This document shows positions 33,120-35,594 of a stretch of DNA of 64,000 nucleotides, piece after piece (the stretch's first letter is position 1; every line of letters starts with the position of its first letter). The DNA is from Zhongshania sp. (GTDB taxonomy: Bacteria > Pseudomonadota > Gammaproteobacteria > Pseudomonadales > Spongiibacteraceae), in NCBI RefSeq assembly GCF_029212375.1, contig NZ_JARGNU010000003.1, forward strand, positions 186,001 through 250,000. Direction: 5' to 3'. The notes under the pieces were generated by a model. The model did not search any database, was not told the origin of the DNA, and worked only from the letters and a program-made list of their open reading frames with translations. The position numbers and the translations under genes are program-made.

Positions 33120-33398
33120 CAAAAACACCTTTCGTTAAAGTAGAGTAGTTTGCAAAACCCTGCTGAGCATACTACAGAAACAGAGCTAAAAATGGCTCAA
33201 ATCCTCGCGTAAGGGAAGGGCAATGAAAAACTTTGTATGGACGTCATAAATAAAATGCGTAGGAGTGCAACGCGATATGTGTCGTTTAGGTAGTTGTCGA
33301 TGACTCGTAAAGTGTGTGAAGTAGCAATGAGTTGTTAAGGGGCGAGAATGACTTGGCTGGACGATTGTTGTATGACTTATTTGGATGAGGCGAAGGGG

Positions 33399-34118
33399 TT
33401 ACTCCAAAACACTTAATCCAAAGTAGTCTGCTAAAAAAAGAGGAAAAGCACTGAGTACCGCAACTTGGTCAATAGGTAAATAGTGATCAAGTTGAGCTTG
33501 GGCTATTAGTCGCTGGTTATCAATCGGCTGTAGATTGCCCTCTCCACTGATTAGCACGTTGGCCTTCTTTAAATTGGCTTCAATAAGTAGTTGCCAGATC
33601 GGTTTATTAATATGCTTTGCGTCCTGAAAAATTTGGCGACCTCGGTTGGCAGAAAGGCGCTTGTATATTCGTCCTTTGCATTCCGCAAGGCTGACTGTAA
33701 GGGCAAGGTATTCGACTGGGTCGTTAATATCCCGTATTGCTTCAATCATTGGGTAGCTTATGAATAGTTTACCGCTATCGGTCTCGTTATCAAAGCGGGC
33801 TAGCATCTCCAACAGCTTGGCGCCGTTAAATTTCTCGTCCTGAGGTTCGAAGTCAAAGAAAAGATAAATTTGACCGATTTGGTCACGTCTAAGAACTGCC
33901 AGTCTTTCATCTTGGTTTGCACTTGGATTTAATTCTTTAACAAGTTCAAAAAGATCTAAATCTTCATCGGCGTTAATTTGCGCGTACAAGTCGTAGATAT
34001 CATTCTGAAAACTGGCCAGCAGGCGACTTTCCTCGCCCTTAAAAAAAGCTTTTTCCAAACTTTTAAAATAAAGTTTTTCGGCTTTTTCGCCTTCGAAAAT
34101 AAATAGCGTCCGCTCCAT
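33399..34118 (-). CDS. RloB/AbiLii-like TOPRIM-type nuclease subunit of a putative defence module
   Basis: 239 residues. The N-terminus FIFEGEKAEKLYF (Glu9, Glu11) resembles the conserved Glu strand of TOPRIM and RloB-like proteins; YLFFDFEPQD (Asp89, Glu91, Asp94) can supply the acidic metal site, and SYPMIEAIRD resembles the conserved family block after it. Such proteins pair with AAA15 ATPases in abortive-infection systems (AbiL, RloAB, PARIS AriB). The start shares a base with the ATPase stop (TAATG). Family assignment is by motif pattern only; the toxic substrate is unknown. Confidence 0.65.
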   Translation of the reverse strand: MERTLFIFEGEKAEKLYFKSLEKAFFKGEESRLLASFQNDIYDLYAQINADEDLDLFELVKELNPSANQDERLAVLRRDQIGQIYLFFDFEPQDEKFNGAKLLEMLARFDNETDSGKLFISYPMIEAIRDINDPVEYLALTVSLAECKGRIYKRLSANRGRQIFQDAKHINKPIWQLLIEANLKKANVLISGEGNLQPIDNQRLIAQAQLDHYLPIDQVAVLSAFPLFLADYFGLSVLE

Positions 34119-35230
34119 TAACTGGATAATCCTTTATAAATTTTTTCTAGATTGTGAGCTTTGCGCAGCTCCTTTCCTGTTAATGCAGTAATTGGCGAAA
34201 TTACTTTGTCTAGTACAAAGTAACAGTCAGGTCGCAGTAAATCGTTGCTCATAATGCCTGTGTTATGGGTTGTCATAATGGTTTGACAGCGTGTATTGGT
34301 AACCCGTTCGACAATTTTTGCGGCTAGTGCATGATGGTAAAAGGCATCAAACTCGTCAATATAGGCGAAGGTTATTTCCTTTTTTGCAAGGCGTAGCCAC
34401 CAGAAGTAAAAAATTCCGAGTGACAGAGTCCCCGTGGATGCCGCCAAGCCAAACTCAAGTGATGTTTTTCCGTAATCGAAATAAATGCCTTCTTCTCCGT
34501 TACTGTTGGTCTTAACTTTAAGGGAACACTTGACTCCAGCGTCATTAAGAAACTGTTCAAAGTCATTAACGGAATTATTGTCAATAATACTTTGTGAGAG
34601 TCGTTTTACACCAATATTCTTGCCGATATAATCGCCCGTTTTGGTAGAGTCTAGCGAGCGAAAAAACACCATGCCCTCAATAAAACTAAGCAACTTGGAA
34701 AATAGTTGGTTAGTAGGGGTTTCATCTAAAATGGTGTTGCTACGGACGTACTTGAGTAATGATATTTCAGAGGTACCAACATCGCTTTTCAGATGTTCTG
34801 CACCTTGCAAGTGAATGCTAGCCTGGTTAGATTGGCGGCGGTCTACATGGAGTATCCGTTCCTCGTTGATGAACAGACTTTCGTATACCATGCCTTCACG
34901 TGATTTTTTTCCGTAGTTATATCGAATTTCCGAACCATCAATACGATACTCAAAAGCGAACTCCGCAATCGTCACATTCATCCCGCCATTTAGGTAGTTG
35001 ATGTCGAGTGAACTGAGGTAGTTGGGTGAATCTGTCAAGTGGAGTACAGGGTCCACCATCGCCAGTCCTAAATTAGACTTACCACCACCATTAGGACCAT
35101 AAATCATGGCGTGCTGTATGATTCCGTTATTGACAGCATTCGTGTTGAATTCGTATTGCTGGCTTGATAGGTCAAAGACTAGCCAGTCCGTGAAGTTCCG
35201 AAAATTTTTAACGGAAAATTTGTGTAGCAT
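34118..35230 (-). CDS. AAA15-family ATPase of a putative anti-phage defence module
   Basis: 370 residues. N-terminal FSVKNFRNF strand, Walker A GPNGGGKS (45-52), a long helical insert, a signature-like block ASTGTLSLG (264-272), Walker B FAYIDEFDAF (about 288-297) and an H-loop TTHN (320-323). This is the SMC/OLD-like AAA15/AAA_21 architecture of RloA, AbiLi and AriA. The ATG at 35230 follows GGGGA at 8 nt; the upstream ATG at 35263 would precede the predicted transcription start. It lies within 200 bp of the prophage end and is oriented away from it. Confidence 0.85.
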   Translation of the reverse strand: MLHKFSVKNFRNFTDWLVFDLSSQQYEFNTNAVNNGIIQHAMIYGPNGGGKSNLGLAMVDPVLHLTDSPNYLSSLDINYLNGGMNVTIAEFAFEYRIDGSEIRYNYGKKSREGMVYESLFINEERILHVDRRQSNQASIHLQGAEHLKSDVGTSEISLLKYVRSNTILDETPTNQLFSKLLSFIEGMVFFRSLDSTKTGDYIGKNIGVKRLSQSIIDNNSVNDFEQFLNDAGVKCSLKVKTNSNGEEGIYFDYGKTSLEFGLAASTGTLSLGIFYFWWLRLAKKEITFAYIDEFDAFYHHALAAKIVERVTNTRCQTIMTTHNTGIMSNDLLRPDCYFVLDKVISPITALTGKELRKAHNLEKIYKGLSS

Positions 35231-35258
35231 CTGGTGTTCCCCAGCAGTTGACAGACTT

Positions 35259-35287
35259 AGCATAGCAGCTTTGATTGTTACCGTAAA
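35259..35287 (-). promoter_or_regulatory. Sigma70-type promoter of the AAA15/TOPRIM operon
   Basis: -35 TTTACG (35282-35287), 17-bp spacer, -10 TATGCT (35259-35264) preceded by TGC (extended -10), giving a start near 35252, about 20 nt before the ATG at 35230. Confidence 0.65.
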
Positions 35288-35354
35288 AAAACTACGGCAA
35301 ACTCTTGGTCTTTTTAGTGTTTAATCGAAAGTAGAATAATGGAATAGGTACGTT

Positions 35355-35405
35355 TGATAGGGGCCTAAAAGTAACCCTCTGTATGGGGCCATTAAGAACG
35401 CGACA
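35355..35405 (+). repeat. Direct repeats at the presumed left end of the prophage
   Basis: TGATAGGGGCC (35355) and TGTATGGGGCC (35380) are spaced 25 bp apart and followed by similar TAAAAGTAAC / TTAAGAAC sequences. Mu-type ends begin with TG and carry transposase-binding repeats, so one of these may be the terminus. CGCGACAA also recurs near 35399 and 35504. Confidence 0.35.
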
Positions 35406-35573: not shown

Positions 35574-35594
35574 CCGTTAATGTATGTTTAACGG
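35574..35594 (-). terminator. Possible terminator or site downstream of the repressor gene
   Basis: Perfect 7-bp inverted repeat CCGTTAA/TTAACGG with a 7-nt spacer, 5 bp after the repressor stop. On the minus strand it is followed by TATAATATC rather than a T-run, so termination is uncertain. Confidence 0.35.

Follow-up and report, generated by a model that had tools for sequence, protein, structure and literature searches.

Locus and gene features

The window, here meaning the whole 64,000-nucleotide stretch of DNA that was analysed, carries two coupled minus-strand genes, A and B, next to a Mu-like prophage. The features of the locus are given below in window coordinates.

34118..35230, minus strand: gene A, AAA_21/ABC-type ATPase (PDC-M12A, RloA/AbiLi-like), 370 aa; the open reading frame opens at 35263
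33399..34118, minus strand: gene B, putative TOPRIM-like nuclease (PDC-M12B, distant RloB/AbiLii relative), 239 aa
34116..34120, minus strand: TAATG stop/start overlap coupling A and B, read in the sequence; spacing in relatives measured
35259..35267, minus strand: possible extended -10 of the A-B operon, TGCTATGCT; kept in the same-genus copy, absent from the consensus-scan list
35375..35379, no strand: CCCTC, probable 5-bp target duplication on the left side of the Mu-like prophage, from the end analysis; phage probably from 35380
33392..35297, minus strand: stretch common to genome G379 of the same genus, at the same chromosomal site, with 87% DNA identity (L140 7092-8997)

The coupling of the two genes, first proposed in a sequence-only reading of this DNA, was confirmed: both minus-strand open reading frames are present and share one base, within TAATG. 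Among 77 genome loci, A and B overlap by 1 to 11 bases in 70 and are separated by 1 to 7 bases in seven, figures biased towards closeness by the choice of the in-frame B start codon nearest the A stop. As opened in the window, the reading frame of A spans 34118-35263 on the minus strand (381 aa). The start codon in use is very probably an internal ATG (35230), giving 370 aa, since six aligned relatives begin at the equivalent of Met12, GGGGAA stands 5' of this ATG, and the upstream ATG at 35263 falls within the proposed extended -10 (35267-35259).

This extended -10 had been put forward as the operon's own promoter. The sequence is there and is preserved in the G379 copy, but it was missing from the output of a consensus promoter scan, whose 4 promoters match the 3.9 expected from shuffles, so that the promoter is plausible only. 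A small palindrome, ccgtaaaaaaactacgg (35281-35297), lies 5' of A at the point where homology with the same-genus copy stops; it is possibly an operator or a cassette boundary.

Protein families and predicted structures

Gene A encodes an SMC/Rad50-like ABC ATPase. It matched the PADLOC models PDC-M12A (E 1.8e-147) and AbiLi (E 7.8e-37) and Pfam AAA_21 (58.7 bits, cut-off 27), and the only NCBIfam match was a weak one to SufC. With hhalign, A was aligned to the RloA profile over 336 columns (E 1.1e-25). Alignments to seven AriA-type proteins (E 1.2e-10), OLD (E 7.2e-11) and fused DUF4435 proteins (E 5.8e-5) spanned 69 to 77 columns only, the first being confined to 77 columns near Walker B; three control families gave E 0.29 to 0.39. 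Walker A, signature, Walker B and switch histidine are all intact, and residues K51, S265, G267, D292, E293 and H322 were unchanged in 71/71 rows. The predicted structure (pLDDT 87.1) matched SMC, Rad50, PtuA and retron ATPases in Foldseek, with a best E of 1.2e-10.

Gene B is a putative TOPRIM-like nuclease, distantly related to RloB/AbiLii. It matched PADLOC PDC-M12B strongly (E 1.2e-78) and AbiLii weakly (E 5.3e-4), and scored 16.4 bits against Pfam RloB (PF13707), under the curated cut-off of 31.5. DUF4435 and HNH matches were absent at E 1 in Pfam, and NCBIfam gave no match. When a profile of 62 B rows was compared with 11 RloB proteins by hhalign, the alignment (E 3.1e-7) covered B residues 2 to 133 only and paired E9-G10-E14, D89-x-E91 and S121-x-P123-x-x-E126 with their RloB counterparts; because RloB aligns with this part alone, the C-terminal helical part appears to be B's own. 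The same comparison gave E 0.32 for two-gene DUF4435 proteins, 0.073 for fused DUF4435 proteins and 0.34 for eight OLD proteins, and 0.053 to 0.69 for 15 control families. Given the 336-column alignment of A and the RloB match of B, both proteins are nearest in sequence to RloA/RloB (AbiL group) among the families compared.

These results uphold the earlier assignment of an RloA/AbiLi-type ATPase followed by an RloB/AbiLii-like partner, through both PADLOC and hhalign; a likeness of B to AriB, suggested at the same time, is less well supported (two-gene DUF4435, E 0.32). HMM searches, which had been named as the means of checking, returned PDC-M12A/B, AbiLi and, weakly, AbiLii, with no DUF4435 match and RloB sub-threshold. 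The view that B is not clearly DUF4435 or RloB and may be a distinct subtype holds, since it falls outside DUF4435 and below the Pfam RloB cut-off. Its length of 239 residues, described as short, is not unusual beside the 11 RloB proteins of 170 to 229 residues.

The EGEK (E9-G10, with E14) and DFE (D89-F-E91) motifs pointed out in that reading occur in B and are conserved, and relatives retain the acidic motifs EG...E, DxD/E and SYPMxE. Y42, D89, S121, P123, E126 and K153 were unchanged in 62/62 rows, E9, G10 and E14 were found in 61/62 (one gap), and position 91 was D in 50 and E in 12; the invariance of D89, D/E91 and SYPM is inflated, as these residues belonged to the search patterns with which B loci were fetched. 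In eight B sequences taken from tblastn, the PADLOC model or the window, E9, G10, E14, D89, S121, P123, E126 and K153 were invariant.

In TOPRIM domains, strand 1 is followed by a glutamate and a later strand by DxD. In the predicted B structure, which is confident (pLDDT 92.3), E9 lies just past strand 3-8 (strand 1), D89 closes the later strand 81-89, and D or E stands at position 91. The motifs and the strand-helix order fit a predicted TOPRIM domain, but the TOPRIM-like fold proposed earlier is less well supported: none of 645 PDB matches in Foldseek reached E 0.001 or better (best E 0.072), and AriB was not among the best 50 of the 645. Among viral models the best match was an RloB-like protein (E 0.025), none being significant. 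Solved structures compared with the B profile gave FosB (E 0.01) and Cas10 (E 0.11) only, both weak and taken as chance.

Chromosomal site and the Mu-like prophage

Profile matches identified a Mu transposase, a transposition protein and a repressor among the prophage genes. The best-supported ends are 35380 and C13:260526, the latter outside the window, giving a prophage of 39,147 bp. This end pair has TG...CA ends, the exact 5-bp duplication CCCTC and 12/20 inverted-end matches, and no other candidate in the compared stretches has TG at each end; another candidate, at 35591, also has 12/20 inverted-end matches, without TG ends. The left end is probably 35380, 150 bp upstream of the A start and 93 bp from the 35287 given before, in agreement with the earlier placement of the module at the prophage edge. 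A 14-bp direct repeat between the two flanks was not taken as a phage end.

In G379 the pair stands between a DUF808 gene and a phosphatase-like gene (by reading), and phage genes were absent from the 18 kb read round it. In the genome G370 (L139) the DUF808 and phosphatase-like genes adjoin and the pair is absent, B being found nowhere in that genome. When L010-L017, the eight closest loci (5.6 to 16.7 kb each), were compared with five Mu-region proteins, nothing matched. Since G379 has the pair at this site without the prophage, G370 has the site without the pair, and the phage probably begins at 35380, the pair is a chromosomal cassette outside the prophage, and the phage landed beside it. 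Insertion next to an existing module had been one of two possibilities raised previously and is the one supported here; the other, that the module protects this lysogen, is less well supported. The immediate flanks of the pair in the window are not defence genes according to Pfam.

On the far side, the last gene of the prophage (L118 13517-14476) looks like a DNA methyltransferase by reading (DPPYY motif). Host DNA past the right end carries a tRNA-Ser, then metallo-beta-lactamase-fold, MoaC-like and MoaE-like genes (by reading); nothing like it was present in the eight loci read from genomes of the genus, so this region differs between them. The tRNA-Ser(GGA) lies on the minus strand (L118 14676-15030; C13:260676-261030) and, as judged by eye, two additional tandem repeats of its 5' end plus about 110 bp of adjoining DNA lie upstream of it.

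Distribution, mobility and selection

B relatives were confirmed 219 times in genome contigs, and 80 were kept for analysis; their hosts belong to Pseudomonadota, Bacteroidota, Campylobacterota and other phyla, as assigned from record titles. A stands directly upstream of B in 79/80 kept loci, and in the one locus left, L078, the contig breaks off within B. On viral contigs A accompanied B in 14/14 loci found by B, and B accompanied A in 16/17 found by A, the two sets having contigs in common. One IMG/VR contig (L106 3402-5676), which also has an apparent terminase gene, bears an A homologue with no B detected downstream, possibly an orphan A or a partner swap. On another (L103 and L116) the A homologue was matched as two pieces overlapping by a few bases, probably a frameshift.

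Within the genus of the window, B was found in 3/18 genomes, with the pair present or absent at one site; in the class sample it was found in 2/369 genomes, one of them the window's own. The third genus member with B is G380 (C1:2247326-2248039, L214), at 71% identity. Of 72,556 plasmid records, 14 hold B, all 14 with A as well; ten are 4.0-4.4 kb long and one is a 2.1-Mb Fusobacterium record. Two of the 4-kb plasmids were read and carry little besides the pair. Copies like that of a Raoultella plasmid occur in 9/5426 E. coli genomes, on plasmids only. Among phage records, 3/50,697 contain B, all of Vibrio Tubulavirales, in which A is noted as 'Paris_II__AAA_21' and B has no note; among the rows listed, B is hypothetical or unannotated.

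The neighbour scan took in 119 proteins, drawn from 32 of the 80 kept loci. Defence models were matched by some of them (type I and II methyltransferase, RT, Cas1, mad2), and others were housekeeping proteins. The 32 loci were hand-picked, the tally covers 25 among 113 families, and the control set, 108 proteins surrounding DUF808 in eight genomes of the genus (two families), was selected as housekeeping and is redundant; for these reasons no rate of defence neighbours was drawn.

Compared with the G379 copy, dN/dS was 0.05 for A and 0.117 for B, and dS was 0.60 and 0.65 for the pair against 2.42 (near saturation) and 1.00 for two nearby genes. The low dN/dS points to purifying selection for function, and the dS below that of the nearby genes fits horizontal exchange. 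Divergence of A tracks that of B (56 pairs, r 0.78, 0/2000 permutations as high), which shared ancestry alone can yield.

Proposed function

We read the pair as a phage defence module of two genes, abortive-infection in type and belonging to the RloAB/AbiL branch (PDC-M12), held on a small mobile chromosomal cassette beside but outside the Mu-like prophage, with a probability of roughly 0.68. The PDC-M12 match, the co-occurrence of A and B, the patchy presence, the carriage by plasmids and phages and the published relatives support defence, and the mobile, defence-like distribution agrees with the abortive-infection role suggested from the sequence. Weighing against it are the B model without a significant PDB or viral match, the mixed neighbours, the non-defence flanks and the rarity in the class. 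A different AAA-neutralised pair, reported to give no phage protection in an E. coli screen (PMC10440598), also counts against defence.

Most likely the ATPase restrains and senses while the nuclease arrests the infected cell. A would assemble and keep B inactive, as suggested by PARIS and by an AAA-neutralised RloB-type pair (PMC10440598); a phage signal would alter A; and B, freed or switched on, would cut a nucleic acid needed for growth through a predicted metal-binding acidic site (E9, E14, D89, E91, E126). RNA such as tRNA is the likeliest guess for the target, and infected cells would halt before phage release. The restraint-and-release step is borrowed from other systems. In PARIS, an AriA hexamer sequesters AriB, a phage protein frees AriB, and AriB cuts tRNA (PMC11455837; PMC12409363). 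The second model is the C. algidicarnis pair of an RloB-related node D44 and an AAA node D29, for which a figure legend cites neutralised toxicity in E. coli as the validation (PMC10440598).

An addiction module, with B as toxin, A as antitoxin and the pair kept because its loss kills the cell, would have no anti-phage role; we consider it unlikely. The pair is almost the sole cargo of the two 4-kb plasmids read, and the restrainer-first gene order, which is that of PARIS, suits addiction as well as PARIS. The C. algidicarnis RloB-type pair is likewise given as a toxin-antitoxin in E. coli (PMC10440598), but in PARIS either gene is reported as deletable without toxicity (PMC9122126), and variable loci of filamentous Vibrio prophages are reported as defence-enriched (PMC11630473), and the pair may sit in such a locus. 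Less probable again is a housekeeping pair for DNA or RNA repair or processing, combining an SMC/Rad50-like ATPase with a nuclease outside immunity: SMC and Rad50 are among the fold neighbours of A and ordinary genes are among the flanks, but the presence is patchy (3/18 in the genus, 2/369 in the class sample), varies at one site and extends to plasmids and phages. Carriage by the Mu-like prophage, as lysogenic-conversion cargo near its left end, is very improbable and largely refuted. A does start 150 bp from that probable end, but G379 has the pair at this site and no prophage in the 18 kb read, on which the reading was rejected; the five tested Mu-region proteins had no match in the 5.6 to 16.7 kb of each of the eight closest loci, and the probable terminal duplication stands between phage and pair.

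Comparison with known systems

By sequence, the defence module proposed here is the candidate defence pair already catalogued in PADLOC as PDC-M12A/B, which the sequence-only reading had missed: both proteins match the two models nearly full length, the genes are adjacent, and no difference was found. The PDC-M12 entry is itself a candidate only. The literature searched held no mention of the name and, with related names included, no phage or toxicity data for the family; publications naming RloA and RloB together were not defence work, judged by title and abstract.

RloA/RloB and AbiLi/AbiLii (AbiL of Lactococcus) likewise consist of an ATPase followed by a small acidic-motif protein. The pair differs from them in that B is under the Pfam RloB cut-off and has a C-terminal helical part of its own, and in that no restriction-modification operon immediately adjoins it here. 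PARIS (AriA/AriB) is likewise split into an ABC ATPase and a separate effector. Its published rule asks the ATPase to reach 32 bits for AAA_15 or 27 bits for AAA_21, and the partner 27 bits for DUF4435 (PMC9122126). A passes on AAA_21 (58.7 bits), and its alignment with AriA is confined to the 77 columns near Walker B. PARIS membership as defined was rejected on DUF4435, to which B showed no match at E 1 and a profile comparison of E 0.32. Retron and Septu PtuA ATPases have a fold in common with A, but PtuB is an HNH nuclease (PMC10440598), whereas in B an HNH match was absent at E 1. In single-chain OLD proteins ATPase and TOPRIM are fused, whereas here they are two open reading frames, and B compares with OLD at E 0.34; HHpred is reported to link RloB with OLD TOPRIM domains (PMC10440598).

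An uncharacterised candidate family is hereby placed in the AbiL/RloAB group with its key residues named, and its natural E. coli versions on 4-kb plasmids make it easy to test. Annotation is shown here to catch one of the two members of such a pair, with a PARIS-type note on the ATPase and the partner unnamed. Tentatively, and with rather less confidence than in the defence reading, we suggest that split ATPase-plus-TOPRIM immunity may have a third separate branch, PDC-M12, in addition to PARIS and AbiL/RloAB. Its effector would retain the acidic core but, having an invariant K153 and a helical C-terminal half of its own, would have a target and a trigger of its own. Small enough to travel as the near-sole load of 4-kb plasmids and by way of filamentous phages, it would be annotated as an orphan PARIS ATPase or as nothing.
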